This document shows positions 7,931 to 52,761 of a DNA stretch of 64,000 bases, piece after piece (position 1 is the stretch's first letter; each line of letters begins with the position of its first letter). This DNA comes from Candidatus Gastranaerophilales bacterium. GTDB taxonomy: Bacteria > Cyanobacteriota > Vampirovibrionia > Gastranaerophilales > Gastranaerophilaceae. Location of the stretch: NCBI GenBank assembly GCA_028693235.1, contig JAQUVW010000003.1, forward strand, positions 62,001-126,000. Reading direction: 5' to 3'. The position numbers and the translations under genes were made by a program. The notes beneath the pieces were generated by a model. The model was not told the DNA's origin. It was given only the letters and a program-made list of their open reading frames with translations, and ran no database searches.

Positions 7931-8989
7931 ATGTATATTAATAAGTGCACTAAATGTGGAGCAGAGTTTGAGACAAAGAACCCTAAGCGTGTTATTTGTC
8001 CTAATTGTTTGTATCCTGAAAAAAAATCCACAGAATCTCAATCTGGAACTGAGGCTGAAAAGCCTGTACAAAGAGCATCCTATAGTTCTGAAGCCGAGTA
8101 CGGTGACAGAGAACGACGTCCTTATAATGCTGATAGAGGCGGTGTCAGACCTCAATACAACAGCTACAATCGTGATAGAGGCGACCGACCTTATAACAAC
8201 AATTATAATCGTGACCGTGGTGGCGACAGACCTTACAACAATTATAACCGTGACCGTGGTGGCGACCGACCTTATAACAACAACTACAACCGTGACCGTG
8301 GTGAGCAGCCTGCTGACAGACCATACAACAACTATAACCGTAGCGACCGTGGTGGTGACAGACCCTATAACAACTACAACCGTGACAGAGGTGACAGACC
8401 TCAATACAACAACTACAACAGAGGCGATCAGCCAGCTGACAGACCATACAACAACTATAACCGTGGCGACCATGGCGGTGACCGACCTTATAACAACTAC
8501 AACCGTGGCGGTGGCAACAGACCTCAAGGCGGATTTAACCGCAGACCTGGTTTTAACAGAAGACCTCAAAGACCTAAACAACTTTTGGTCAGCAAAGAAC
8601 AACTTGAACAAATTGAAATACTTTATAAAAAAACTTTACCTTTGCCAAATCCTGATATTCACGAAGTTATTGGCTCTGCTATTGATTTGGAAGCAAGAAA
8701 AGTATTCTTTGGTATCAATTTAATCAGACAAAAAATGATGCTACCGAAACTTCCTTTCCCAAAAAGAAAATTGGCAGTTTCACCAGATCAACTAATGGCA
8801 ATAAAAGCACTTTATGAACCATTACTTCCATTGCCTCCAATCGGCTGTCACAAGATTATCGCTATCCAATTGAAAATGGACGAATGGCGAGTTCATGTAG
8901 GTATCGGACTTGTCAGGAAACAAATGGGACTTGACCGTTGGAATCCTGATAGACCTGATGCACCTGAGGAATTTAAGAAAAAAGATTAA
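7931..8989 (+). CDS. Zinc-ribbon, Asn/Arg/Asp-repeat protein with duplicated C-terminal domain
   Basis: A 352-residue protein I do not recognise as a named family. Three parts are visible. Residues 6-26 are a zinc ribbon (C6-x2-C9, C23-x2-C26). Residues about 62-212 are a low-complexity region of about eight 12-17 residue units built on RPYNNYNRDRGGD, rich in Arg, Gly, Asn and Tyr, resembling RGG-type RNA-binding tails. Residues about 217-278 and 281-337 are two copies of a ~57-residue domain sharing L.V...QL..I..LY...LPLP...H..I......V..GI.L.R..M. The stop is 2 nt before rimM, so it is transcribed and probably coupled with rimM-trmD, where other bacteria often have rpsP and a KH-domain gene. 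An RNA or ribosome-assembly role is inferred from that position and composition. Confidence 0.8.
   Translation: MYINKCTKCGAEFETKNPKRVICPNCLYPEKKSTESQSGTEAEKPVQRASYSSEAEYGDRERRPYNADRGGVRPQYNSYNRDRGDRPYNNNYNRDRGGDRPYNNYNRDRGGDRPYNNNYNRDRGEQPADRPYNNYNRSDRGGDRPYNNYNRDRGDRPQYNNYNRGDQPADRPYNNYNRGDHGGDRPYNNYNRGGGNRPQGGFNRRPGFNRRPQRPKQLLVSKEQLEQIEILYKKTLPLPNPDIHEVIGSAIDLEARKVFFGINLIRQKMMLPKLPFPKRKLAVSPDQLMAIKALYEPLLPLPPIGCHKIIAIQLKMDEWRVHVGIGLVRKQMGLDRWNPDRPDAPEEFKKKD
8114..8531 (+). repeat. Imperfect in-frame tandem repeats (36-51 nt units)
   Basis: About eight degenerate units encoding the RPYNNYNRDRGGD-type repeats. All unit lengths are multiples of three, so the frame is kept, with unit size varying from 12 to 17 codons (QPAD insertions at two or three sites). 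Synonymous changes between units show the array is under protein-level constraint. The array also produces long spurious open frames on both strands. Confidence 0.85.
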
Positions 8990-8991
8990 TC

Positions 8992-9504
8992 ATGGAAAAT
9001 CTTATTTCAGTTGCTAAAATAGTGAATTTTCACGGAATTAAAGGTGAAGTAAAAGTCGGCTTTACAAAAGGTAAAGACGAGCAAATAGCTTCTACAAAAT
9101 GCTTTTACCTAAAAGTGAACGACTCGACAACTAAACTAATTGTCAATTCAGTCAAATTTCACAAGGGGTATGCAATAATTAAATTTGATGAAATTAACTC
9201 AATTAACGACGCCGAAAAATACAAAGGATTCAACTTGTATCTTGAAGAATCACTGGTCAAAAATAATCTTGCTCAAGATGAGTATTTGGTTAGCGATCTC
9301 CAAGGTATAGAGGTATTTGATACTGACAACAAAAAAATCGGCGTGGTTTGCTCCGTTGGAGAAAATAACGCAAATGACCTACTTACAGTTATCGACACAA
9401 ATGACAAAAAACACTTAATTCCATTCGTAAAAGACCTCGTTCCTTATGTTGATTTAAAAAACAGAAAATTGATTATTAACAACATAGAAGGACTTATAAA
9501 TTGA
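8992..9504 (+). CDS. rimM: Ribosome maturation factor RimM
   Basis: Assists assembly of the 30S subunit head by binding protein S19. The 170-residue length is normal. The N-terminal domain begins with the family pattern AKIVNFHGIKGEVKV, and the C-terminal PRC-barrel half contains DLQGIEVFDTDNKKIG and LIPFVKDLVPYVDLKNRKL, close to the family's usual sequence. It starts 2 nt after the repeat protein and its TGA overlaps the trmD start codon (TTGA), so the three genes form one coupled unit. Confidence 0.95.
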   Translation: MENLISVAKIVNFHGIKGEVKVGFTKGKDEQIASTKCFYLKVNDSTTKLIVNSVKFHKGYAIIKFDEINSINDAEKYKGFNLYLEESLVKNNLAQDEYLVSDLQGIEVFDTDNKKIGVVCSVGENNANDLLTVIDTNDKKHLIPFVKDLVPYVDLKNRKLIINNIEGLIN

Positions 9505-10241
9505 ATTTTAATGTCTTAACTCTGTTCCCAGAATTAATCAAACAATCTTGCAATCATAGCATTATAAAACGTGCTAAAGAAAATAATTTTATACAAATAA
9601 ATACAATAAATCCTCGTGATTTTACCCTTGATAAGCACAAAAAAGTTGATGATTCACCATATGGTGGCGGAGCAGGCATGGTTTTGGCATGCCAACCTTT
9701 TTTAGATGCATTAAAAAGCATAGAAAAAATCGATAATGCTGAAACAATAATACTAACTCCTCAAGGTGAAAAATATACACAACAGATTGCTTGGGAATTT
9801 GCAAAAAAAGACCAACTAAACATAATTTGCGGTCACTACGAAGGTTTTGACGAAAGAATCAGAACATTATCTAAAGCAAGAGAAATTTCTTTAGGAGATT
9901 TTGTTTTAACTGGTGGCGAATATCCGGCATTATGCATTATAGACAGCGTTTCAAGACTTATCAAAGGGACACTTGGAGATGATGATTCGGCAAAATTCGA
10001 CAGTCATTCAGAAGGTCTTTTGGAATATCCTCAATATACAAAACCTCGTTCATACGAAAATTTAGATGTCCCGGAAGTAATACTCAACGGGAATCACGCC
10101 GAAATCAACAAATGGAGAAGACTGCAACAATTTATCAGGACTAAACAAAAACGCCCCGATATGTGGATTAACTTTTTAAAACAAAATTTATCTAAAATTG
10201 ACATTAAAATATTAAAAGAGTACAAAGATATTTTAGAATAA
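9501..10241 (+). CDS. trmD: tRNA (guanine-37-N1)-methyltransferase TrmD
   Basis: Methylates N1 of G37 in tRNAs, preventing frameshifting. A 246-residue SPOUT (knotted) methyltransferase. Start is TTG at 9501, giving MNFNVLTLFPEL, which matches the family's conserved N-terminus. Motifs include DDSPYGGGAGMV, GHYEGFDERI and the knot segment GDFVLTGGEYPAL. The start codon overlaps the rimM stop by 4 nt with AGGA upstream. No rplS follows, unlike the common rpsP-rimM-trmD-rplS order. Confidence 0.97.
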   Translation: MNFNVLTLFPELIKQSCNHSIIKRAKENNFIQINTINPRDFTLDKHKKVDDSPYGGGAGMVLACQPFLDALKSIEKIDNAETIILTPQGEKYTQQIAWEFAKKDQLNIICGHYEGFDERIRTLSKAREISLGDFVLTGGEYPALCIIDSVSRLIKGTLGDDDSAKFDSHSEGLLEYPQYTKPRSYENLDVPEVILNGNHAEINKWRRLQQFIRTKQKRPDMWINFLKQNLSKIDIKILKEYKDILE

Positions 10242-14753: not shown

Positions 14754-16211
14754 TTAAACATAATCAATAACATCAAGAGGATATTCAAACATTATTTCTT
14801 CTTTTGCTATAACAGAAATGTTTGGTATAAATTGAGATAGAACAATAAAAAGGACATGTCTTACTGCCATTGGTGCAACCAAAACGATATCTTGCAAATC
14901 TAAATCATTTTTCTTTATAGATGATTTTATGCGAGAAGCAATTTTTTCAATTTTTGAACTTTCAATTCTAACAACATCATCTGTATCTGTAGCTTTTGTC
15001 AAATATGCAGTCATTTTTTCATCCAGAGCAAATGCTTGAATTGTACTATTTTTTGTTGCTACAGAACGGCAAATTTGTCTAGCCAGAGCAATTCTAAGCC
15101 TTCCTAACAAATCTTCTTTTGAGGGTTCATCTGCAAAATCATTAATTTTCTCAAATACATACATAATATCTTTTATAGAAACTTTTTCTTTGACAAGATT
15201 TGCTAAAATGTATTTTAACTCTGCTATAGAGAGATAATCGGGTATAATATTTTCGATTAAGTACAAATTTTGATTTCCGACTATTTCAATATAACGATTT
15301 ACGTCAGAATAATCAAAAATTTCTTCAATATGCTTAGTCACGACAAACTCAATTGCACGGGATATATATTCTCTCGGTTCAAGCCCTTGAGTCCAATAAT
15401 CTTTTGTTTTAGATTTTTCTATCCAAACAATATTTTTACCTGTAATATAGTCGATTTCCTTAATTGAGTCTTTTGGCAACTTAGAGACAGCCAAATCGTC
15501 ACGGAAATACATAATATGTCCAGAATAAGCAGTGGCTCTAAAGACAGGGATACCACGAACATTTACAAAAAACTCATTTGCTTGCAAGTCATCATCTTCG
15601 GTAATCATAATTTTGGGAATAATATAACCGAGTCTTTCAGTGAAATCTTGTCTAACTTTCACAATTTGTGCAATGAGATTTGCTTCACTGTCAGGATTGA
15701 CAATATCAAGAAGTTCTTCTGATAAAGCAATACTTAATTTATGTTCGCCGAGTTTATGTTCCATCACATCAGGGGACATAATCTGTAATAATTTCTTTTT
15801 TAAATCAGATAATTCTTTTAAGGTAACAGACATTTCCACATTCAAATCAGCTCTACTATCTTCTGAAGTAGAATCCAAAAAAGACTTAATCTGTGCAATT
15901 TTTTGTCTTTTATCACGTATTTTTTTCTGAATATCAAGGCAGATATCAATAGGCTCCAGAGCAGGGTTCATTATTCTTTCCATTTTAGATTTAAAGCCCA
16001 AGAAATCGAGTGAATCATCATCGTCATCTTCAGGAGAAGAATCTTTTACAAAAATACAATTAAAATTGATAGAATCATCGTTTTCTGCTTCATGCATAGA
16101 ATACAATTCCCAACCGAGTTCTGACATTGAATTAAGCAAAGTTTCCAACTGTTCAACATCGTCACAAGGACAAGATTTGATGCAATATTGTGCATGCGAC
16201 TGTTTAATCAT
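14754..16211 (-). CDS. Soluble FlhA cytoplasmic-domain paralogue with novel N-terminus
   Basis: A 485-residue protein without membrane segments. Residues about 160-485 align along the whole cytoplasmic domain of FlhA (FHIPEP family), including this window's own FlhA: LGYIIPKIMI...ANEFFVNVRG, ELKYILANLVKEKVSIKDIMYVFE, LRIALARQICR and a final LSQFIPNISVIA segment. The eight-helix export channel is absent. In its place are a small N-terminal domain (residues 5-56) of DUF4177-like pattern with Cys10, Cys14 and Cys16, an Asp-rich linker (about 58-68), and a coiled-coil-prone stretch (about 90-145). FlhA-C docks chaperone-substrate complexes in flagellar export, so this could be a soluble docking, storage or decoy factor; that is inference. 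GAGGTAG lies 5 nt before the ATG. It is 26 kb from the flagellar island. Confidence 0.85.
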   Translation of the reverse strand: MIKQSHAQYCIKSCPCDDVEQLETLLNSMSELGWELYSMHEAENDDSINFNCIFVKDSSPEDDDDDSLDFLGFKSKMERIMNPALEPIDICLDIQKKIRDKRQKIAQIKSFLDSTSEDSRADLNVEMSVTLKELSDLKKKLLQIMSPDVMEHKLGEHKLSIALSEELLDIVNPDSEANLIAQIVKVRQDFTERLGYIIPKIMITEDDDLQANEFFVNVRGIPVFRATAYSGHIMYFRDDLAVSKLPKDSIKEIDYITGKNIVWIEKSKTKDYWTQGLEPREYISRAIEFVVTKHIEEIFDYSDVNRYIEIVGNQNLYLIENIIPDYLSIAELKYILANLVKEKVSIKDIMYVFEKINDFADEPSKEDLLGRLRIALARQICRSVATKNSTIQAFALDEKMTAYLTKATDTDDVVRIESSKIEKIASRIKSSIKKNDLDLQDIVLVAPMAVRHVLFIVLSQFIPNISVIAKEEIMFEYPLDVIDYV

Positions 16212-16276
16212 TAAAACTACCTCATAAAACTATTCTGCATTTTAATCATAACATTTTTCGCAGAGAATTTCATCTC

Positions 16277-42533: not shown

Positions 42534-43883
42534 TTATATTTCGACATCTTGCATCATTGATATCAAAGTATTTATAGTATTTTGCATATTAACGCTGTCA
42601 GAAACTTTTTGTTGAAGGAAACCGTTAATTTGCGGCATCAACTCAATAGCAATATCAAGCCTGGGGTTTGACCCTGGCGTGTACATACCAACATCAATCA
42701 AATCTTTATTTTCCCTGTATAAAGCCAATAGAGTTCTCATTTTGGCAGCAGCAGCCTTATGCTCTGGGGTACAAATTTCCGTAAACAAACGGCTGATACT
42801 ACCTAAAACATCTATTGCAGGATAATGATTCATCTCCGCAACTTTTCTGGATAAGAATATGTGTCCGTCAACAATACCACGGACAGTATCAACAATCGGG
42901 TCGTTAATATCGTCACCTTCCATCAAAACGGTGTATAAGGCGGTAATAGAGCCACGGGGACTGTTCCCCGTTCTTTCAAGAGCCTTTTGAAGCCAAGAAA
43001 AAATAGATGGTGGATAACCTTTCATAGTAGGAGGCTCGCCGATTGACAGTCCAACTTCACGCCCTGCCATAGCACAACGAGTAACAGTATCCGTCATTAG
43101 AAAAACTTTTTTGCCTTGATCTCTGAAATATTCACACACAGCCGTTGCCGTTAAAAGGCACTTCTGTCTGATTAAAGGTGGCTGGTCACCTGTTGAACAA
43201 ACCAAAACGGATTTTTTCATACCTTCTACACCAAGAGAATTTTCAACAAACTCTTTGACTTCACGCCCACGTTCACCGATTAACGCCATTACATTGACAT
43301 CCGCCTCAGAATTACGAGCAATCATTCCCAGCATTGTACTTTTACCAACACCAGAGCCTGCAAACAATCCCATACGTTGCCCACCACCCAAGGTTAATAG
43401 CGAATCTATTGCTCTTACACCGGTCGAAAACGTATCTTTAATAATCGGTCGGTCAAACGCCCCTGGTGGTGCATTATCAATATTAACCCATTTTGCAACA
43501 GATGTATCAAGGGGTCTTCCATCGATAGGCTCACCCAAAGGATTTATTAATCTGCCTAACAAAAAATCCCCGACAGGAACAGTAATCGGTTTTCCTGTAG
43601 ACTGAACCAAACTTCCTTGACCAATCCCGGCACCATCATACAAAAGCAATAATTGAGCATATTCACCTTTAAAGGCAACAACTTCTGCAGCTTTTCTTTC
43701 GCCTTCGGTTGTTTCAATAAAGCACAAATCGCCAATTTTCAGACCGGGGAGTTTTACTTCAACAGTCAAGCCAACAAGCTTCGAAACGGAACCTTTATAA
43801 TGAAATAATTGAGTATTGTGAATAATCTCAAAAGCTCTTTTTTTCATATATTCAATAGATTTTTCGGTGCTTTGTTCTATCAC
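42534..43883 (-). CDS. fliI: Flagellar export ATPase FliI
   Basis: F1-like ATPase that releases chaperones and helps deliver substrates to the flagellar export gate. The 449 residues include the Walker A motif AGSGVGKST (175-183), the RGREVKEF and DTVTRCAMAGREVGL segments, and EPPTMKGYPPS, all typical of the flagellar branch rather than F1 beta. Start GTG overlaps the flhA stop by 4 nt (GTGA), so the two are coupled. FliJ is not adjacent. Confidence 0.95.
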   Translation of the reverse strand: MIEQSTEKSIEYMKKRAFEIIHNTQLFHYKGSVSKLVGLTVEVKLPGLKIGDLCFIETTEGERKAAEVVAFKGEYAQLLLLYDGAGIGQGSLVQSTGKPITVPVGDFLLGRLINPLGEPIDGRPLDTSVAKWVNIDNAPPGAFDRPIIKDTFSTGVRAIDSLLTLGGGQRMGLFAGSGVGKSTMLGMIARNSEADVNVMALIGERGREVKEFVENSLGVEGMKKSVLVCSTGDQPPLIRQKCLLTATAVCEYFRDQGKKVFLMTDTVTRCAMAGREVGLSIGEPPTMKGYPPSIFSWLQKALERTGNSPRGSITALYTVLMEGDDINDPIVDTVRGIVDGHIFLSRKVAEMNHYPAIDVLGSISRLFTEICTPEHKAAAAKMRTLLALYRENKDLIDVGMYTPGSNPRLDIAIELMPQINGFLQQKVSDSVNMQNTINTLISMMQDVEI

Positions 43884-45991
43884 GATTCACCGCCGAAACT
43901 ATAATCTGAAATGTACGATTCACCAATTGTATCAACAGCTTCGACACGAATGTCAGTAATTAATTCAGAATAAGAAATGACAACAATAGTCGGAATATGT
44001 CTTTCTAACAATTGATATAAAGGCAATCTGATACGAGGAGAACACAAAATAACAGGCTGTCTGCCGATATTTTGATGGGCTCTCATCAAAGTTGACGCCG
44101 TAGACTCAATAAGCTCCTGCACTTGCAAAGGATTTAGCAAAAACATAGTACCAAGCTCAGTTCTTTGACAACTATCATCTAATGTTTTTTCCCAATCTTG
44201 CGACAAAGTAAGTGCATACAATACTTTTTCTGGATTTACATTAGCAAGACAAATCTGACGCCCTAAGGCTGCTCGCAACCTTTCAGATAAAATATCAGGC
44301 TCTTTTGAAAAACGTGCATAATCACAAAGTCTCTCAAAAATAAATATAATATCTTTTATGGATACTTTTTCTCTAATCAAATTAACAAATATTTTCCGCA
44401 AATCACTAGTCGAAATAATAGTCGGGACCAAGTCATTAACCAAAGTCGGGTCTTGACTCTTAACAAGCTCCATTAGCTTCAAGACATCAGTTTTAGTCAT
44501 AACTTCATCTACATATTTTCTGACAGCTTCTTGCAAATGGGTTACTATAACATCAACTGAATCAACAGCAGTAATTTTATCAGCAGCCTCAATAGACGTT
44601 GGATCTAGCCAATAAGCCTGTGTTTGGTAAGTAGGATCCACTCCAACAATAGCATCTTTGGGAACATCTTTGCCTAAAGCGTCCCATTGGTCAGCAATAA
44701 CCATGTTTTTTCCAGGGTAAACCTTACCCGTAGCAACAGTATTACCACGAATCGAAATCAAATACTCATTGGCATCAAGAGCCGAAGAATCCATAATTCT
44801 TACATTAGGAATGATATATCCGAGCTCATCAGTCACTCTTTGACGTAAAGCAGCAATTTTCGGTAACAATTGACCTTCTTGATCCGGGTCCGCAATAATC
44901 AACAAGCCTGAACCAACCTGCAAACTTAATACATCAACCCCCAGTCTTTCATACATTCTGTTTGGATTAACCAAATCTTGCATGTTTTGACGAACATTTT
45001 CCAACTGCCCTAACTGAGATTGGACATCTTGATTAACTAAAACAGAAAAACTTGCAACAGCAATAACAATGATATAAATAACAAAAGGCAAAGCAGGAAG
45101 CCCTGTCCACGGACTTGTAACAGCAATAAGCCCCAAGAAAATACAAGCAAATCCTAAGCTATAAGGTTTACTCAAAATTTGAGCAGCTAAATCACCACCT
45201 AAAGAAGCCCCTGTAGCTGAAGAACGTGTCATTACGATACCTGCTGAAATAGCCATCAATAATGACGGCAACTGAGCAGCCAATCCATCACCTACTGTTA
45301 ACACTGTATATTTTTGAACGGCGTCCCCTGCCGGCATACCGTTTTGAAGCATCCCAATTGCTAAACCACCGACAATATTAATTATTACAATGATAATACC
45401 TGCAATAGTATCACCTTTTACAAACTTCATGGCACCATCCATAGAACCGAATAAACTTGATTCTCTTTGGAGGTCTTCACGTTTTTTTACAGCTTCTTCT
45501 GGTGAAATCAACCCCGCATTAAAATCGGCATCAATAGTCATTTGTTTTCCAGGCATTGCGTCTAAGGCGAATCTCGCAGCAACTTCTGCGATACGTTCAG
45601 AACCCTTTGTTATAACCATGAATTGGACAACTGTTATAATCAAAAATATAACAAAACCTACAATTAGGTTACCACCCGTAACGAAATTACCAAAAGCTTC
45701 AACAACTTCGCCAGCATTACCTTTAGCCAAGATTAACCTTGTAGAAGCAATGGACAAAACCAACCGAAACATTGTACCAATCAAAATGATAGAAGGAAAT
45801 GCCGCCAATTCTAAAGGTTTCTGTATATACAAAGAAATCATCAATAAAACAATTCCTAAAGTAATATTGAAAGAAATTGAAAAATTAATAACCCAAGGAG
45901 GCATTTCAACAAGCAAAATTAATATTAGCAAGATTACACCTGATGCTAACATTATTTCACTGACTGGATTTTTTGAGCCTCCGGCTGCCAA
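43880..45991 (-). CDS. flhA: Flagellar export gate protein FlhA
   Basis: Ion-conducting export gate subunit. 703 residues: eight membrane helices in about the first 320 residues with the FHIPEP-type loop FVKGDTIAG and the conserved GDGLAAQLPSLLM, then the cytoplasmic domain from about 345 that binds chaperone-substrate complexes. The start is TTG 45991 with GGGGGAA 5 nt upstream. It is coupled to fliI and follows fliH by 9 nt. A soluble partial copy lies at 14754-16211. Confidence 0.97.
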   Translation of the reverse strand: MAAGGSKNPVSEIMLASGVILLILILLVEMPPWVINFSISFNITLGIVLLMISLYIQKPLELAAFPSIILIGTMFRLVLSIASTRLILAKGNAGEVVEAFGNFVTGGNLIVGFVIFLIITVVQFMVITKGSERIAEVAARFALDAMPGKQMTIDADFNAGLISPEEAVKKREDLQRESSLFGSMDGAMKFVKGDTIAGIIIVIINIVGGLAIGMLQNGMPAGDAVQKYTVLTVGDGLAAQLPSLLMAISAGIVMTRSSATGASLGGDLAAQILSKPYSLGFACIFLGLIAVTSPWTGLPALPFVIYIIVIAVASFSVLVNQDVQSQLGQLENVRQNMQDLVNPNRMYERLGVDVLSLQVGSGLLIIADPDQEGQLLPKIAALRQRVTDELGYIIPNVRIMDSSALDANEYLISIRGNTVATGKVYPGKNMVIADQWDALGKDVPKDAIVGVDPTYQTQAYWLDPTSIEAADKITAVDSVDVIVTHLQEAVRKYVDEVMTKTDVLKLMELVKSQDPTLVNDLVPTIISTSDLRKIFVNLIREKVSIKDIIFIFERLCDYARFSKEPDILSERLRAALGRQICLANVNPEKVLYALTLSQDWEKTLDDSCQRTELGTMFLLNPLQVQELIESTASTLMRAHQNIGRQPVILCSPRIRLPLYQLLERHIPTIVVISYSELITDIRVEAVDTIGESYISDYSFGGES

Positions 45992-46000
45992 TTGTTCCCC

Positions 46001-46711
46001 CTATATTTTCTTGAAAGCTTCTTGTATTATTTGGATTTGTGACTCTATTGTAGCATCAATGATTCCATTTGAGGTTTCAATAATTGCTCCCCCCATAGAA
46101 ATATCAGCATCTGGAACTACATTTATTTTCACATCATATTTTGAGTCTGCCAACTTATCTGGCAAGTTTTCCTTTACATTATCAACGTCATCGGGCATAA
46201 CTTTTATGGTTATTCGATTTTCGCCTTTTGCATTATCATCCAAAATACCTTGAATAATATTCAAAATAGCTTCATCATTAGTTTTCAATTCATTATTAAG
46301 GATTTTTTTTGCAATTTCAACAGAAATATCAAAAATACCCGAAGTCAACTCCTCGTAGACTTTATCCTTGTATGCAAAGAACTCGTCAATTGAAGAATTC
46401 AAACGAGCAAGGTCTTCTTTTGCAGATTCAATACCGGCTAGTCGACCATCTTTAGTTGCAATTTCCTTAATAGAAATAGCTTCTTCTTGAGCTCTTGAAA
46501 TCAAATTTCTATCATCAATCCTGCGATAGCCACGACGTCTGCTTCCCTGCCTACGTTCAGCCCTTTGTTCAAAATTTATGTTATCAATACTAAATTTTGC
46601 AAGAATATCTTCTTCAACAGGTGGCTCAACTTTAGTTTTTTCAACCTCTGTTGGAGTCACTTCTTGTTTGTCTATTTTTTTTTCGATATTACGCTTTCTT
46701 TTGATAATCAT
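46001..46711 (-). CDS. fliH: FliH-type stator/regulator of the export ATPase
   Basis: A 236-residue protein with a basic and proline/glutamate-rich N-terminus, a long helical middle (about 75-135) and a C-terminal V-type ATPase E-subunit-like half (EIAKKILNNELKTNDEAI, GGAIIETSNGIIDATIESQ), the pattern of FliH/SctL. It tethers FliI and the export gate. It overlaps the FliG-like gene by 23 nt with only a weak ribosome site, consistent with coupled translation. The identification rests on the pattern and position between fliG and fliI. Confidence 0.85.
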   Translation of the reverse strand: MIIKRKRNIEKKIDKQEVTPTEVEKTKVEPPVEEDILAKFSIDNINFEQRAERRQGSRRRGYRRIDDRNLISRAQEEAISIKEIATKDGRLAGIESAKEDLARLNSSIDEFFAYKDKVYEELTSGIFDISVEIAKKILNNELKTNDEAILNIIQGILDDNAKGENRITIKVMPDDVDNVKENLPDKLADSKYDVKINVVPDADISMGGAIIETSNGIIDATIESQIQIIQEAFKKI

Positions 46712-47636
46712 CTATTTTGTCTTCTACATGCTTACAAATCAATTGTATCACCCATGGTGAAAGATTTCTTCTTTCATCAAATGCTTCATCTAATATAAAT
46801 TCTTTGACCAATGGACGCTCTTGCTCGACAATATTTTCCAAAACTTTGACATCAACTTTAGCCAAAGCCCTACTAAATTGCCCCAAAGTTTTATTAATAT
46901 TGACCTTTTTCGGCTGTGGCAACGAAGTTTTTATCTCTTGCAAACATTTAAGAACAACACTTGTATCGATTTTTGTTTCAAGGTCATCCATTTGCATATA
47001 TTGAATTAAAACTTGAGCCTCGGAAGGTGCGAATTTATTCAAAATTGTGCCGACTTTGTCTTTGGGCAACTGTTTTAAAATCATTGCAAAAGCAGCCATT
47101 TTTAAAATTTTAGCATCACTGGCACTTTCAATAGCTGCATTATCAGCCTGAGCCATAGCATCAATATTTGACTGGCTCATGGCATTTTTCATTTGTTGAT
47201 CATTTAATGCACCTTTTTTCTTTAAATCCGCTAAAGCTTCATCAAAACATTTTTTGACGTGATGTTCCACTAAATCAATCATTTGACCCTGTGGTAAATT
47301 TTTCGACAAAGACTGTTTGGCAATTTCAAAAACAGTAAATGCAATTTTTTGTAAAATAGGATCTCTAAATTGAGGAGGAACACCGCCTCTAATTAAATCA
47401 ACAGATTTGTGAAAAGACCATTCACCAATAAACTGTGTAACAACAGAAGCTTGCCCGACATCAAAGGTAACAGTTTTATCTTTAGATAAAGCTTCGCCTG
47501 CTAAAAAACAGAAGTTATTTACAATATTTACAATATAATTCTTGTCTTCATCAGACAAATCACGAGGCAAGACAGCTTTTGCTTGCTGAGCAAGGTCAGC
47601 TGCGAACTCCTTGTAGTTAAACCCCTCTATCGACAT
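46689..47636 (-). CDS. FliG-position protein, highly divergent
   Basis: A 315-residue protein between fliF and fliH, where fliG normally lies. Residues about 175-240 (AAFAMILKQLPKDKVGTIL) resemble the FliG N-domain that binds FliF, and 250-312 (RALAKVDVKVLENIV) resemble the FliG C-domain helices. Residues 1-150 have no FliG counterpart I can see, and the FliG middle-domain EHPQ motif that binds FliM is absent. It may be a remodelled switch/rotor protein or a structural substitute. No FliM or FliN is in the window. The identification rests mostly on synteny. Confidence 0.55.
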   Translation of the reverse strand: MSIEGFNYKEFAADLAQQAKAVLPRDLSDEDKNYIVNIVNNFCFLAGEALSKDKTVTFDVGQASVVTQFIGEWSFHKSVDLIRGGVPPQFRDPILQKIAFTVFEIAKQSLSKNLPQGQMIDLVEHHVKKCFDEALADLKKKGALNDQQMKNAMSQSNIDAMAQADNAAIESASDAKILKMAAFAMILKQLPKDKVGTILNKFAPSEAQVLIQYMQMDDLETKIDTSVVLKCLQEIKTSLPQPKKVNINKTLGQFSRALAKVDVKVLENIVEQERPLVKEFILDEAFDERRNLSPWVIQLICKHVEDKIDDYQKKA

Positions 47637-47654
47637 TTTAAGTTATCCCCTTGT

Positions 47655-49313
47655 TTAAGACTTTTCAATCCAACTTTTTACTTGTTCAATAACAGCATCA
47701 TCTTCCGCAAAAGCGATGTCAGAAGACACATCAGTAATGGTGTTTTTCAAATCTTCGACGGCATTCGGATTTTGAGATATTTGTTGTTGAGCTTGTTGCT
47801 CCATAAGTCCTTGTTGCATTATTGCTTGACGTTCTATTAATTCTGCAGCCTTTAAATTAACATCTCTGAGTTGTTTCTCTTGTTCTTGAGATTTGGCTCT
47901 TAAAGATTCTAACTCTTCTTTTTGTTTTAAAGCTGCGGCTTTAAGTTTTTTAGAAATAAAACTAAATCCGAACATCAAACCACCAACCAACAAAGCTATT
48001 GCTATCCACCAAGGATTTCCTGTTTGTTCAACTTTTGGCAAACTAACCGGTCTATCGGAAGCCAAATACGGTTCGATAGAATCTGAATAAGCAATTGAAA
48101 CATTGTTTGGTGAAACTTTTGGAGATGCTGATTTTGCAATTAAAGCTTTTAATTCGTCTTCTGTAATATTTGTCGGAATGGCACCCTCGTCAATCGTTAC
48201 TGCAATAGAAATATCTTCAACTACGCCCGGTTTAATATACTCATTAACTTGAGTTTTTGAAACTCCGTATTGGGTTTCTTTTGCTATTCTTGAATAACTG
48301 CGGTTTTGAGCTGAATCACTTCCACTTGCAGGCAACCCATTAGGCAAATAAACACTGACAGCATTCAAGCCTTTATTGCTGTCTTGAGTTGAATCGCCTA
48401 AACCCTCTGAGAAAGTTTGCTCAGAAACTGAGGTTTTTTGCTTCGGATTATACAATATGCTTGATTTTTCAATAGGAACTTGTCTTAGAAATGTACTTAC
48501 AGTGCAGACATAATTACCTTTTCCAAGCAACCTGTCTAATTGAGACGCGACTTTACCTTGCATATATTGGTCATTTTCCTGCAATCTTGAAAGTTGGTCA
48601 TCTGTTGAATTTATTAAACTATGATAAACATTCCCGTTTGTATCGGTAATAGAAATATTTTCAGAAGTAAGTCCGGTAACACTACCTAAAAGCAAATTTG
48701 TAATAGCTTTTATTTTTGTTTGGTCTAGCTTTACGCCACTTGGAACAACGAGTTGAACTGTAGCTGTAATAGGTTTTTTATCAGCTGTAAACATAGAATT
48801 TTGTTCAGGAATAGAGATAAAAACGGAAGCATTTTCAATGCCTTCAATTTTTCTTATCAATCTGGACAACTCACCATTGATAGCACGCGAAAGCCTGATT
48901 CTCTTGTCTTCTTTAGTCGAAGTAAAATCACCTTTGTCAAATATTTCAAGACCGACAAACTGATCCATCAATCCACTTTGAACAATAGCCAAAAGAGCAG
49001 CATCACGTTGAGATTGAGTATAAGTTCCACCCTTTAAGACAATGGAAGATTTATTTCCTTCATTTACTCTTTGAGCTTCAATTTGCTGTTTTGCAAGCAA
49101 GGCTTGAATTTCAAGAGCCTTACCAAGATTATCGGTAGTCAATAAAGTAGCATCTTCTTTAACTTTTTTTTCAACTTGAACATTAGAACCACCGGTAGAG
49201 CCTTTTGTTGCAGCTACCATACCCATAGAAACAAATATAACCAAAATCAACGCAATCACCCCAATGATTGTGTATAACAACGGCTTATTTTTTAGTATTT
49301 CTTGAAAGTTCAT
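47655..49313 (-). CDS. fliF: Flagellar MS-ring protein FliF
   Basis: Forms the MS ring in the inner membrane. 552 residues, with transmembrane helices at about 12-34 and 430-452. The periplasmic ring-building motifs lie between (ALEIQALLAKQQIEAQ, IRLSRAINGELSRLIRKIEGIENASVFISIPE in parts). The cytoplasmic tail is a coiled coil ending in AVIEQVKSWIEKS, equivalent to the FliG-binding end of FliF. The only purine-rich site before the ATG (AAGG) abuts it, so leader-dependent initiation is unclear; the promoter is 18 nt upstream. Confidence 0.95.
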   Translation of the reverse strand: MNFQEILKNKPLLYTIIGVIALILVIFVSMGMVAATKGSTGGSNVQVEKKVKEDATLLTTDNLGKALEIQALLAKQQIEAQRVNEGNKSSIVLKGGTYTQSQRDAALLAIVQSGLMDQFVGLEIFDKGDFTSTKEDKRIRLSRAINGELSRLIRKIEGIENASVFISIPEQNSMFTADKKPITATVQLVVPSGVKLDQTKIKAITNLLLGSVTGLTSENISITDTNGNVYHSLINSTDDQLSRLQENDQYMQGKVASQLDRLLGKGNYVCTVSTFLRQVPIEKSSILYNPKQKTSVSEQTFSEGLGDSTQDSNKGLNAVSVYLPNGLPASGSDSAQNRSYSRIAKETQYGVSKTQVNEYIKPGVVEDISIAVTIDEGAIPTNITEDELKALIAKSASPKVSPNNVSIAYSDSIEPYLASDRPVSLPKVEQTGNPWWIAIALLVGGLMFGFSFISKKLKAAALKQKEELESLRAKSQEQEKQLRDVNLKAAELIERQAIMQQGLMEQQAQQQISQNPNAVEDLKNTITDVSSDIAFAEDDAVIEQVKSWIEKS

Positions 49314-49330
49314 CCTTAATCTATCTATAA

Positions 49331-49359
49331 TTAATAATTACACTCATAATCAGTGTCAA
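49331..49359 (-). promoter_or_regulatory. Promoter of the fliF-fliG-fliH-flhA-fliI unit
   Basis: On the minus strand, a perfect TTGACA (plus 49354-49359), a 17-nt spacer and TATTAA (plus 49331-49336) precede the fliF ATG by 17 nt. It is a sigma-70-type rather than sigma-28 or sigma-54 promoter. It divides the flagellar island into two units. The 120-nt gap holds nothing else. Confidence 0.75.
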
Positions 49360-49433
49360 TCGAAAAGTTCATGCTCTACGATTTTACCTCACCCATGCTA
49401 ATATTATACTATTATTTTAAATATAAGGTAATG

Positions 49434-49772
49434 TTATATTGAAATTTGCATAACTTTTTCATACGTTTGAATGACTTTCCCAGCGACTTGAGTTGCCAAG
49501 GTTACTCCCAGTTCAGCTTTAGCCATTGCAGTTGTAACATCATGGATATCAACATTTGAATTTCCCATCATTTGATCTTTTAACAATTCGTCAGGTTTTG
49601 ACATTTCTTGGTTTAAATTAGAAACCAAACCTGACATTACTGATTTAAAATTCTCAGTTTCAGGTTGCTCTACTGACTTCATTCTCATACCCTCAATTCC
49701 AAAATCGGTATATTTTGAAGGCTCTATTCTTTGAAACAAATCAATATTTGGTACTAAATTTTGCTTAATCAT
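49434..49772 (-). CDS. fliE: Flagellar hook-basal body protein FliE
   Basis: Links the MS ring to the rod. 112 residues with the characteristic C-terminal half: DIHDVTTAMAKAELGVTLATQVAGKVIQTYEKVMQ, given here in parts as DIHDVTTAMAKAE and VIQTYEKVMQI. It lies 12 nt after the lytic transglycosylase gene in the flg unit. Confidence 0.93.
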   Translation of the reverse strand: MIKQNLVPNIDLFQRIEPSKYTDFGIEGMRMKSVEQPETENFKSVMSGLVSNLNQEMSKPDELLKDQMMGNSNVDIHDVTTAMAKAELGVTLATQVAGKVIQTYEKVMQISI

Positions 49773-49784
49773 CCTATATAATCC

Positions 49785-50420
49785 TTATCCTAAGTAATTT
49801 GCCAATATACTTTTTACGTAATTTTGAGTTTCTTTAAACGGAGGAACTCCATTATATTTATCTACATTGCCCGAACCCGCATTATATGCAGCTAGAGCAA
49901 GTATTAAATTTCCGTTATGTCTTTTCAATTTTGATTTAAGATATTTGACACCGCCCTCTATATTTTGAATAGGGTCAAACGGATCTTTAACCCCGAGCCC
50001 ACGAGCTGTAGCAGGCATCAACTGCATTAGTCCAATGGCTCCACAAGAAGAAACCGCATCAGATCTAAAACCTGATTCTTGCTTTACTAATGCTTTAATT
50101 AATTTTTCATCAATGTCATATTTTTTAGCCATGTGAGAAATAATATTCATGATTTGAGATTTTGATGCCTTTACTCCGTGCTTTACAGAAGGCAAAGCAG
50201 AAACAGCGTTAACATCATCAGCGTTTAGAACTTTAAACTTTGAATCAATTGCATTACTGGACTTTAAAACATCAGAAAAAGGCTGAACCGTATTATTTGA
50301 AGGTTCTTCTAAAACTGATTTCTCAAGATTATTAACATAGGTGTTAATCTGAGCTGCACGTTTAATTGCGGCTTCTTTACCACTTGTATTTATTAAGTTT
50401 TGTATATTTTGTGAAAACAA
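49785..50420 (-). CDS. Lytic transglycosylase (SLT family), probable flagellar wall-opening enzyme
   Basis: A 211-residue protein with an N-terminal Gln/Ser-rich region (1-90) and a C-terminal SLT domain (97-205). The catalytic glutamate is Glu115 (VKQESGF). Further family marks are AIGLMQLMPATARGLG, NIEGGVKYL and LAAYNAGSGNV. It lacks a visible signal peptide and starts at TTG 50420 with AGGG/AGGAA upstream. Its place between flgC and fliE suggests it cuts peptidoglycan for rod assembly, as FlgJ does elsewhere. It may be exported by the flagellar apparatus. Confidence 0.9.
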   Translation of the reverse strand: MFSQNIQNLINTSGKEAAIKRAAQINTYVNNLEKSVLEEPSNNTVQPFSDVLKSSNAIDSKFKVLNADDVNAVSALPSVKHGVKASKSQIMNIISHMAKKYDIDEKLIKALVKQESGFRSDAVSSCGAIGLMQLMPATARGLGVKDPFDPIQNIEGGVKYLKSKLKRHNGNLILALAAYNAGSGNVDKYNGVPPFKETQNYVKSILANYLG

Positions 50421-50456
50421 CTTCCTACCCTGTACCCTCTGTTATATATAAATTAA

Positions 50457-50900
50457 CTATTTCCCTATTTCACAAGCTCTTTGAGCCATTGTTTTGGTAA
50501 TATTCACCACCGCCAAATTGGCTTCGTAGGCTCTTTGTGCCATTGAAGCATCTGCAATTTCAACAAGCGGATTTACATTAGATGTCCTTATATAGCCGTT
50601 AGAGTCAGCATCAGGGTGCCCCGGGCGATATAACCTATCACCAAGCGTAGGATCCTCTACCACGCCAGACATAGCCACTCCGCCTTGAAGAAAAGGAACT
50701 GTCCCCATACCAAACAAATCTTCTTTCATTGAGCTTAATAAACCTGCAAACGAAATATTATCAGTTGCTGTCAAAACAGGGATTTTTCTTACATAATTAG
50801 GCGTATCTAAGTTCGCAATGTTCTTAGCACTTATATCCATACGCTTTCCGTGTACGGTCATCCCTTTTGCACCTATATCAATTGAATTTAATAAACTCAT
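50457..50900 (-). CDS. flgC: Flagellar rod protein FlgC
   Basis: Proximal rod subunit, 147 residues. It has the N-terminal rod motif ISAKNIANLDTPNYVRK, the YRPGHPDADSNGYI segment and the C-terminal helix MAQRAYEANLAVVNITKTM. It lies 2 nt after flgB. Confidence 0.95.
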   Translation of the reverse strand: MSLLNSIDIGAKGMTVHGKRMDISAKNIANLDTPNYVRKIPVLTATDNISFAGLLSSMKEDLFGMGTVPFLQGGVAMSGVVEDPTLGDRLYRPGHPDADSNGYIRTSNVNPLVEIADASMAQRAYEANLAVVNITKTMAQRACEIGK

Positions 50901-50902
50901 AA

Positions 50903-51250
50903 TTATTTACCTACATTCATTACTGTCTTCATATTAGTTATCAAAGAGGTCATATTTCTTGATGCAACATAATACATCAAGGAATTTTTTTGCATCTCAG
51001 TTAATTCATTAGCCGCATTAATAGGACCTTGTTGTCTATCTTCAATAATGGCGGAAGGCCCGAGTTTAGATGATAATTCTGTTTCTAATGGGCTATTCAT
51101 AGTTCCCAAATAAGAATCAAATTTAATATCTTTTCTAACGTAACCCGGTGTGTCCATATTAGCAAGATTGGCAGAAAGAGCCCTTTGTCTTTGGGCAACC
51201 AAATCCAACATCAAATTAATTTTTCCAAATGAATCACTCGGAGTATACAT
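50903..51250 (-). CDS. flgB: Flagellar rod protein FlgB
   Basis: Proximal rod subunit, 115 residues. The N-terminal LVAQRQRALSANLANMDTPGYVRKD segment (in parts LSANLANMDTPGY) is diagnostic of FlgB. It lies 33 nt after the FlgG-like gene and directly before flgC. Confidence 0.94.
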   Translation of the reverse strand: MYTPSDSFGKINLMLDLVAQRQRALSANLANMDTPGYVRKDIKFDSYLGTMNSPLETELSSKLGPSAIIEDRQQGPINAANELTEMQKNSLMYYVASRNMTSLITNMKTVMNVGK

Positions 51251-51283
51251 ACTTTACCTCTACATACTATTTTTTAATTGTTT

Positions 51284-51997
51284 CTATTGATTTAGTGTAA
51301 CAGCTTTATTGTACATGTCATCCACTGCTTTCATGACTTTAAAACTTGCAAGCATTGATGCATTCAATCTCATTACGGTGTTGACCTGATCGTACATGTC
51401 AACATTAGGTCTTTCCAAATAACCTTGCATAACACTATGATGATTGGTCATAAGGATAGGTTCACCTGAGTCATCTGTACATATAAATTTATTGCCATCG
51501 CCACCTTTTAAGCCTTCGGGATTTAAGAAATTAACAACAGGAATTGTACCCAATTTTTTTTCTTTACCACCTGCCTCTAAGACAGCAGTTACGTCACCAT
51601 TTGGCTTAATTATTATTGCATCATAATTTGCAGGAATTTTTATTCCATCACCAACCAAACAATCATCATTTGTGATTAAATAACCATCTTTATCTAATTT
51701 AAAAGCCCCGTCACGAGTATAAGTTACATCACCTGTTCTTGATGTAACGGGAATAAATCCTGCACCTGACAATGAAACATCAAAAGGTTGATCGGTTCTC
51801 AATGGAGCCCCCACTGTAAAACTACGGCGAACAACACCGTCTAAATATCCGTTTTCGCCTAGCATTTCATCAAAACGAACCGCCCTATAAGCAGTTGTAT
51901 TATAATTTGAAATGTTACTTGAAATATAACCCAACTTCTCAAATTGAGTATTTGCGTTAATAATATTTCTTCTTATTACACCTTGAAAACTAGACAT
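51284..51997 (-). CDS. flgG: Flagellar rod protein, FlgG/FlgF type (FlgG-like)
   Basis: A 237-residue hook-basal body family protein. The N-terminal helix with SSNISNYNTTAYR, the central DGAFKLDKDGYLITND and the C-terminal YDQVNTVMRLNASMLASFKVMKAVDD helix are as in FlgG. The FlgG/FlgF choice is tentative and rests on the C-terminus. It is slightly shorter than the common 260 residues. It follows the other rod gene by 14 nt. Confidence 0.85.
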   Translation of the reverse strand: MSSFQGVIRRNIINANTQFEKLGYISSNISNYNTTAYRAVRFDEMLGENGYLDGVVRRSFTVGAPLRTDQPFDVSLSGAGFIPVTSRTGDVTYTRDGAFKLDKDGYLITNDDCLVGDGIKIPANYDAIIIKPNGDVTAVLEAGGKEKKLGTIPVVNFLNPEGLKGGDGNKFICTDDSGEPILMTNHHSVMQGYLERPNVDMYDQVNTVMRLNASMLASFKVMKAVDDMYNKAVTLNQ

Positions 51998-52011
51998 AAA
52001 AACCTCTAAAA

Positions 52012-52704
52012 TTAACTACCTAATTGTTGAACTGCTTTAGAAAGCAAATTTGCTTGCATTTGATAAAGCTGACGATTTGCATCAAAATTTCTGACTATCG
52101 GCATTGCTTGCATAAATTCAGTTGAAAGAGAAACGTTTGAAAATTCATTAAAACCTTGCCTTACGTTAGGTGCCATCACAGCTACGCCCTCAGTTGTAAC
52201 TACAGAAAGTGTCGATACATAATCAAGCTTATTCGTTTTTTTATTAAACACACTTACATTACCTTCTGTGTCTATTTTTATTTGGCTGAGTTCATCGGGC
52301 AAAAAGGGCAGCTTAATTGCAGTTCCGTCGTTTGCAAGGACTTTTTCACCTGCTTCATTCATAAGATTTCCTGTTTTATCAACTTTCAACCTACCATCTC
52401 TGGAAAGTTTAACACCATGTTTTCCCAAATATTGAAAATAGCCCTTATTACCAAGAGCAATGTCCAAAGGATTTTCAGACTGCCCCAACCTGCCAACAGT
52501 ATCATCTATAGCAGTTGAAAGCCCATGTGCTCCAATATATTCAGAAAATGAAGATACAACAGGATCTTTTCTTTGATAACCAATCTTATCAAATCCGTTT
52601 ATATTTTCACTCGTAATCCCCATTAATTCTGTTTGCAAATGCATTGCCCTGATATTACAAGTCAATCCGTTCTCGATAAAATTTATGCCACCACGTAAGT
52701 ACAT
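52012..52704 (-). CDS. flgF: Flagellar rod protein, FlgF/FlgG type (FlgF-like)
   Basis: A 230-residue hook-basal body protein. N-terminal helix with MGITSENINGFDKIGYQRK, middle LSRDGRLKVDKTGNLMN, and C-terminal FDANRQLYQMQANLLSKAVQQLG are in the FlgF style. Start ATG 52704 has AAGGGAA 6 nt upstream; the frame is open further but without a ribosome site. The FlgF/FlgG assignment is tentative. It is the first gene of the rod unit. Confidence 0.82.
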   Translation of the reverse strand: MYLRGGINFIENGLTCNIRAMHLQTELMGITSENINGFDKIGYQRKDPVVSSFSEYIGAHGLSTAIDDTVGRLGQSENPLDIALGNKGYFQYLGKHGVKLSRDGRLKVDKTGNLMNEAGEKVLANDGTAIKLPFLPDELSQIKIDTEGNVSVFNKKTNKLDYVSTLSVVTTEGVAVMAPNVRQGFNEFSNVSLSTEFMQAMPIVRNFDANRQLYQMQANLLSKAVQQLGS

Positions 52705-52733
52705 ACAATTTCCCTTATCAAATACATATTTTC

Positions 52734-52761
52734 TATATAATAATATAGGATTGAAAGTCAA
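52734..52761 (-). promoter_or_regulatory. Promoter of the flgF-flgG-flgB-flgC-SLT-fliE unit
   Basis: On the minus strand, TTGACT (plus 52756-52761), a 16-nt spacer and TATATA (plus 52734-52739) lie 30 nt before the flgF ATG. Confidence 0.6.

Follow-up and report, generated by a model that had tools for sequence, protein, structure and literature searches.

What would a bacterium do with the cytoplasmic domain of the flagellar export-gate protein FlhA (FlhA-C) when that domain is encoded without its membrane channel? The question is raised by an open reading frame at 14754..16211 on the minus strand of the window, the stretch of 64,000 nucleotides from a Candidatus Gastranaerophilales genome that was analyzed here. 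The gene starts with ATG, encodes a product of 485 amino acids plus stop, and is preceded 8-9 nt upstream by GAGGT (16219..16223, minus strand), so that the ribosome site of its own ascribed to it in a first-pass annotation is present. Its assignment as a soluble FlhA-C paralog rests on the reading frame, a match to the FHIPEP family, and the fold. Hydrophobic segments number eight, all strong, in the full-length FlhA of the window (43880-45991; hereafter FlhA2), as against none in 26 of 31 soluble proteins and one marginal segment in the other 5, in line with the claimed absence of the eight export-channel helices. That the window encodes a soluble FlhA-C behind a new N-terminus is thus confirmed. 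The genome encodes three FHIPEP proteins, namely a canonical FlhA (871 bits), FlhA2 (716 bits), and the soluble paralog. The flagellar island of the window lies 26 kb from the gene, as had been stated, and is not the sole flagellar locus, the canonical FlhA being on another contig. Across genomes, no operon with any export gene was found; the neighbors are variable housekeeping genes, which rules out operon logic as a clue to function, and in several genomes the gene and fliI2 share a contig at a distance of 13-43 kb, again without an operon. A short N-terminal F(x)G motif in neighboring proteins was likewise considered as an export signal and rejected, since it occurred in 51 of 443 cases versus 85 of 443 internal windows and is not enriched.

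The C-terminal two thirds of the protein are FlhA-C. Pfam FHIPEP matches residues 140-474 (E 1.5e-50) at model positions 321-653 of 657, which is the cytoplasmic half, and a BLASTP alignment to FlhA2 covers 373 residues at 28% identity (E 7e-48), identity to FlhA2-C in general being about 28-31%. Because this alignment begins at residue 123, some 35 residues before the limit set earlier, it includes the FlhA linker region; the complete linker and cytoplasmic domain D1-D4 thus occupy residues ~146-485. An AlphaFold2 model built on a 30-member alignment (mean pLDDT 82) was compared with solved structures by Foldseek and VIA-align, and residues 154-485 superposed on FlhA-C (nonameric structure 7amy; Z 30.2, 2.8 A, 325 residues). 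Alignment and model together cover SD1-SD4, so that the equation of residues 160-485 with the whole cytoplasmic domain withstood both comparisons. FlhA-C structures rank first among solved relatives and SctV next, and the NCBIfam scores run in the same order (153.9 bits for TIGR01398 FlhA, 89.8 bits for hrcV), although both the soluble protein and FlhA2, at 683 bits, fall below the curated TIGR01398 cut-off of 772 bits. Of the gate features of FHIPEP proteins, the D1-D4 cytoplasmic domain is present and the eight-helix channel part and FHIPEP loop are absent.

Laid out along the minus strand, a segment corresponding by alignment to the FlhA-L linker (residues 146-156; 15744..15776), in which P147 is invariant, is followed by the first part of D1 (residues 157-227; 15531..15743), which holds the LGYIIP run and has S164-E165-E166 where the GYXLI motif would begin. 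According to site mapping, D2 (residues 228-277; 15381..15530) carries D254, T257, and K259 at the positions of Salmonella Asp456, Phe459, and Leu461, and the second part of D1 (residues 278-300; 15312..15380) carries R285 at that of Thr490, a correspondence that depends on a small gap. D3 (residues 301-385; 15057..15311) and D4 (residues 386-485; 14757..15056), both delimited on the structure as was the first part of D1, are the most conserved part and the least conserved domain, with mean pairwise identities of 57% and 33% in the family, respectively.

The new front end comprises three elements. A DUF4177-like domain (residues 5-58; 16038..16199, minus strand; 54% mean pairwise identity) is defined by Pfam and by the model, in which residues 6-58 form a strand-helix-strand-strand unit. 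It is followed by a low-confidence acidic linker (residues 59-75; 15987..16037, minus strand; mostly pLDDT below 50) and a two-helix hairpin (residues 76-145; 15777..15986, minus strand) that from about residue 123 aligns to the region of FlhA2 after the last channel helix. The DUF4177 (PF13783) match is weak, being obtained at E <= 1 for 20 of 25 family members and reaching 5e-4 at best, and the earlier description as DUF4177-like is kept with that qualification. A partial RraB match (positions 31-77 of 102; E 1.8e-4) reaches 22.4 bits versus a gathering score of 23.3 and is seen in 7 of 25 members. The CxxxCxC cluster noted earlier is present in the window sequence but is not conserved, with C10 in 5, C14 in 19, and C16 in 2 of 30 proteins, which rules it out as a metal site; the conserved cysteines of the family are C52 and C91 (29 of 30 each). 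The acidic linker is also real in this protein but shows little conservation of either sequence or net charge, and with charges that range from +1 to -8 it is a weak candidate for a conserved element docking in a basic groove. When the first 150 residues were searched with Foldseek, no significant structural match emerged (best E 0.011); it was mostly the hairpin that aligned, at Z values usual among coiled coils. Mimicry of FliJ/CdsO by the hairpin was rejected, since unrelated coiled coils score as high as the CdsO chain (Z 7.5) or higher.

The gene is a fixed possession of its order. Among relatives, 54 of 59 carry it, at 33-56% identity and in nearly every case along most of the gene. A search of genome contigs with the single protein recovered one relative only; an N-terminal profile, run against a phylum-wide sample, found the gene in 172 of 173 Gastranaerophilales genomes of >= 90% completeness, the sole exception being genome G002, and in no other member of the class. 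Outside the class, three large genomes of the phylum gave hits of marginal significance (E 4-8e-4). The N-terminal search proposed at the outset therefore recovers a gene kept across the order. Ratios of dN/dS are 0.03-0.09; silent sites are saturated in most pairs, and in G041-G046, the pair without saturation, the ratio is 0.036. These values point to an intact gene under strong purifying selection.

In the FlhA tree, the soluble proteins fall into one clade with FlhA2 (support 100/100), within which they are placed as sister to the FlhA2 of their own order with support that is not decisive (84/73); their stem branch is long, at 1.7 changes per site. Three other families of the class (f9-f11) have FlhA2 and lack the soluble gene. 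The simplest account would be a duplication of the linker and C-domain of FlhA2 in the ancestor of the order, after which the eight channel helices would have been lost and the DUF4177-like domain and helical hairpin gained.

The presumed source, FlhA2 (43880..45991, minus strand; assigned by FHIPEP and the tree), is the full-length gate of a second export apparatus. In the window its locus (42534-52761) comprises, all on the minus strand, the ATPase FliI2 (42534..43883; 76-82% identical across the order), FlhA2, a block that by gene reading encodes FliH, a FliG-position protein, FliF, and FliE (46001..49772), and, as part of the apparatus in this genome, a lytic transglycosylase, FlgC, FlgB, and two FlgF/G-like rod proteins (49785..52761). 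Rod genes adjoin the FliE-FlhA2 cluster in genomes G000 and G046. In the non-flagellate genomes examined, no transglycosylase or rod genes were found beside it; FliE, FliF, the FliG-position protein, FliH, and FlhA2 are clustered without them in G006, G060, and G013. FliP2 is encoded in a further locus with a FliM/N-like protein, FliO, FliQ, and FliR, in the order FliM/N-like, FliO, FliP, FliQ, FliR; this locus is present in G000 and also, as judged by reading, in G006, FliQ and FliR being identified by reading. Other loci of the second apparatus are L048, L049, and L050, and in two of them an ORF of 122 amino acids with a signal-peptide-like start lies between fliQ2 and fliR2 (L048:11131-11499, L049:8492-8860). 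The components found order-wide are FlhA2, FlhB2, FliO/P/Q/R2, FliI2, FliH, FliF, and FliE. FlhA2-type proteins are nearly universal in the order, whereas the canonical FlhA was counted in about 69 of the 192 genomes of good quality, and FliP is present as a rule in two copies along with canonical FlhA and otherwise as one short FliP2. FliI2 and FlhB2 occur in 15 of 15 genomes tested and flagellin in 3; no flagellin was found in the other 12, and the second apparatus there thus builds no filament. Taken together, these frequencies indicate that Gastranaerophilales keep a second, mostly non-flagellar export apparatus. Di Rienzi et al. (2013, PMC3787301) and Soo et al. (2014) saw subsets of flagellar genes in such genomes and took them to represent reduced or partial flagella.

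Whether the soluble protein could work as FlhA-C does was examined by mapping Salmonella residues (PMC8166844, PMC9431611, PMC10965912) onto 30 soluble proteins. Asp456 is invariant (30/30). Phe459 is replaced by Thr, Ser, or Asn in all 30, Leu461 by Lys or Arg in 27, and Thr490 by Arg or Lys in 25, the last column hinging on a small gap and being less certain. The groove of the soluble proteins is therefore another surface, polar to basic in character, and is conserved in its own right. In the GYXLI motif, Gly368, important for the open-close motion of FlhA in Salmonella (PMC9431611), is Ser in 27, Asn in 2, and Gly in 1 of the soluble proteins. It is kept in all full-length FlhA and FlhA2 examined, but positions 459 and 461 are divergent in FlhA2 as well. 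Retention of the chaperone-groove residues, which had been proposed as a check, therefore fails in most members for all but Asp456. Flagellin is the cargo of FliS, and that the soluble protein would hold chaperones of the FliS or FlgN type as Salmonella FlhA does is unlikely on the evidence of these sites. The suggestion of a docking platform is accordingly supported only in part: the invariant Asp456 speaks for it, but almost no member has kept the hydrophobic dimple or the glycine of GYXLI. With the chaperone-gripping surface lost, the protein probably does a new job for the second, often non-flagellar export machine. Among the options raised in the first-pass annotation, service to another export system is thus the best supported, the protein being FlhA2-derived and the machine persisting without flagellin.

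The explanation favored here, to which we would give an even chance of being correct on the strength of sequence and model, is that the protein serves the FlhA2 apparatus in the cytosol in the role of adaptor or regulator and has another ligand. Its FlhA-C part would bind gate partners, either FlhA2-C subunits or FliH/FliI, via the conserved D1-D3 face and the linker, while a cargo, chaperone, or signal peculiar to the lineage would be bound by the N-terminal domain and the remodeled polar/basic D1-D2 groove. It should be noted that co-occurrence cannot link gene and apparatus, as both are near-universal, and the lack of an operon with export genes speaks against a close tie. Genome G138 has the soluble gene with FlhA2 undetected, and G002 has FlhA2, FliI2, FlhB2, and FliP2 without the soluble gene; from G002 and the families f9-f11 it follows that the apparatus has no general need of the soluble protein.

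The same contact surfaces could instead make the protein a ring subunit or spare part, which would enter the FlhA2-C nonamer, cap it, or double it, and would adjust or block the gate rather than carry cargo. The FlhA linker binds the neighboring subunit in the ring (PMC8166844, PMC8213127), and the linker segment and D3, which are ring-contact parts in FlhA, are conserved in the family, as D1 is retained; replacement of the GYXLI glycine might moreover fit a static or blocking subunit. This is nevertheless rather unlikely, given an identity to FlhA2-C of only ~28-30% and an N-terminal domain about as conserved as D3, for which a mere spare part would have no need. That N-terminal domain could alternatively make gene expression or RNA turnover responsive to the state of the gate. 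Its RraB match, just under the family cut-off, and the existence in the sister class of an independent soluble FlhA-C with a helix-turn-helix encoded beside fliR-flhB are consistent with such a regulator, but the window protein itself yielded no DNA-binding domain, only a minority of members show the RraB match, and DUF4177 is a family without known function, so that we consider this unlikely. Recruitment of the FlhA-C fold to a job unrelated to protein export would accord with the lack of linkage to export genes, the altered chaperone groove, and the long stem branch, yet it is highly improbable in view of the retention of all four FlhA-C domains and the linker and of the confinement of the gene to an order with a near-universal FlhA2 apparatus. 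Finally, a truncated, decaying FlhA fragment, for which nothing speaks beyond the missing membrane part, is ruled out for practical purposes by the lack of internal stops, the presence of the gene in 172 of 173 genomes, dN/dS of 0.03-0.09, and the conserved new N-terminus.

FlhA-C proteins outside the gate are common in the sister class of the phylum. Two of them, 65% identical, combine an HTH_17 domain (E 1.4e-11) with a soluble FlhA-C (L083:7315-8556, minus strand, which adjoins fliR and flhB, and L114:3765-5018, plus strand). Proteins of ~590-620 aa with a shared N-terminus of ~200 residues and FlhA-C are encoded in L100, L104, and L105, and L112 and others also belong to this sister-class set; in one genome (G240), FlhA-C proteins that are not part of the gate number about five at most. 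A common origin of the sister-class soluble proteins with the window family was rejected as a single clade (p-AU 0.0003). Within the window's own order, one genus has a 593-aa protein (L054:6042-7823, minus strand) with a FliG-position-like N-terminus, membrane segments, and an FlhA-C that, as the alignments read, is without D2, its gene adjoining a histidine kinase and a response regulator. Several genera have small FlhA D1-D3 relatives (L055:6567-7424, L056:7424-8062, L057:7482-8120, L058:7037-7684 and 8804-9520, L059:6972-7979, L085:5146-6036), which seem to keep D1 and D3 without D2 and D4. Tentatively, FlhA-C may be a portable reading module that was cut from the gate at least two times in non-photosynthetic Cyanobacteriota and joined to DUF4177-like, helix-turn-helix, long helical, and FliG-like fronts for cytosolic sensing or sorting of type III cargo and, in one lineage, for direct action on transcription; this is a possibility to which we attach less than even confidence.

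In the literature that was searched, no paper describing a soluble FlhA-C was found. The MEL-COG list of Di Rienzi et al. (2013; PMC3787301) includes two 'flhA' among its 13 flagellum-related genes, and the second of these may be the soluble gene. Cargo choice and timing by FlhA-C have so far been studied within the membrane-anchored ring, and a natural soluble FlhA-C, fixed in an order and altered in both the dimple and the GYXLI switch, offers a ready comparison of what the surfaces of the domain do. The soluble protein also marks the apparatus built around FlhA2 in gut Gastranaerophilales, which has usually been taken for a partial or degenerate flagellum, as a maintained export machine of which it is a lineage-specific candidate part.

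Among known systems, the closest is FlhA-C itself (the C-terminal half of PF00771, with structures from Salmonella, B. subtilis, H. pylori, and V. parahaemolyticus), with which the protein has in common the fold, the four subdomains, the linker, and Asp456, whereas it differs from FlhA in lacking the transmembrane domain, in its new N-terminus, and in the altered GYXLI glycine and chaperone dimple. The injectisome export gates SctV/CdsV/EscV are alike in cytoplasmic fold (Z 22-30), but similarity in sequence is lower than to FlhA and the soluble protein again has no membrane part. Likeness to DUF4177 (PF13783) is limited to the N-terminal region and to a weak match. The HTH_17-FlhA-C proteins of the sister class are likewise soluble FlhA-C with a swapped N-terminus, but are of independent origin and have a DNA-binding front end, one of them being encoded beside fliR-flhB. 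A parallel in concept is FlhX, a soluble FlhB-C homologue in Helicobacter that acts for FlhB as a spare part and for which we know of no new N-terminal domain. As with the window protein, the cytoplasmic domain of an export-gate component exists here in soluble form, but FlhX is derived from FlhB and not from FlhA. FlhX has been named as an export-associated protein (PMC10746217).
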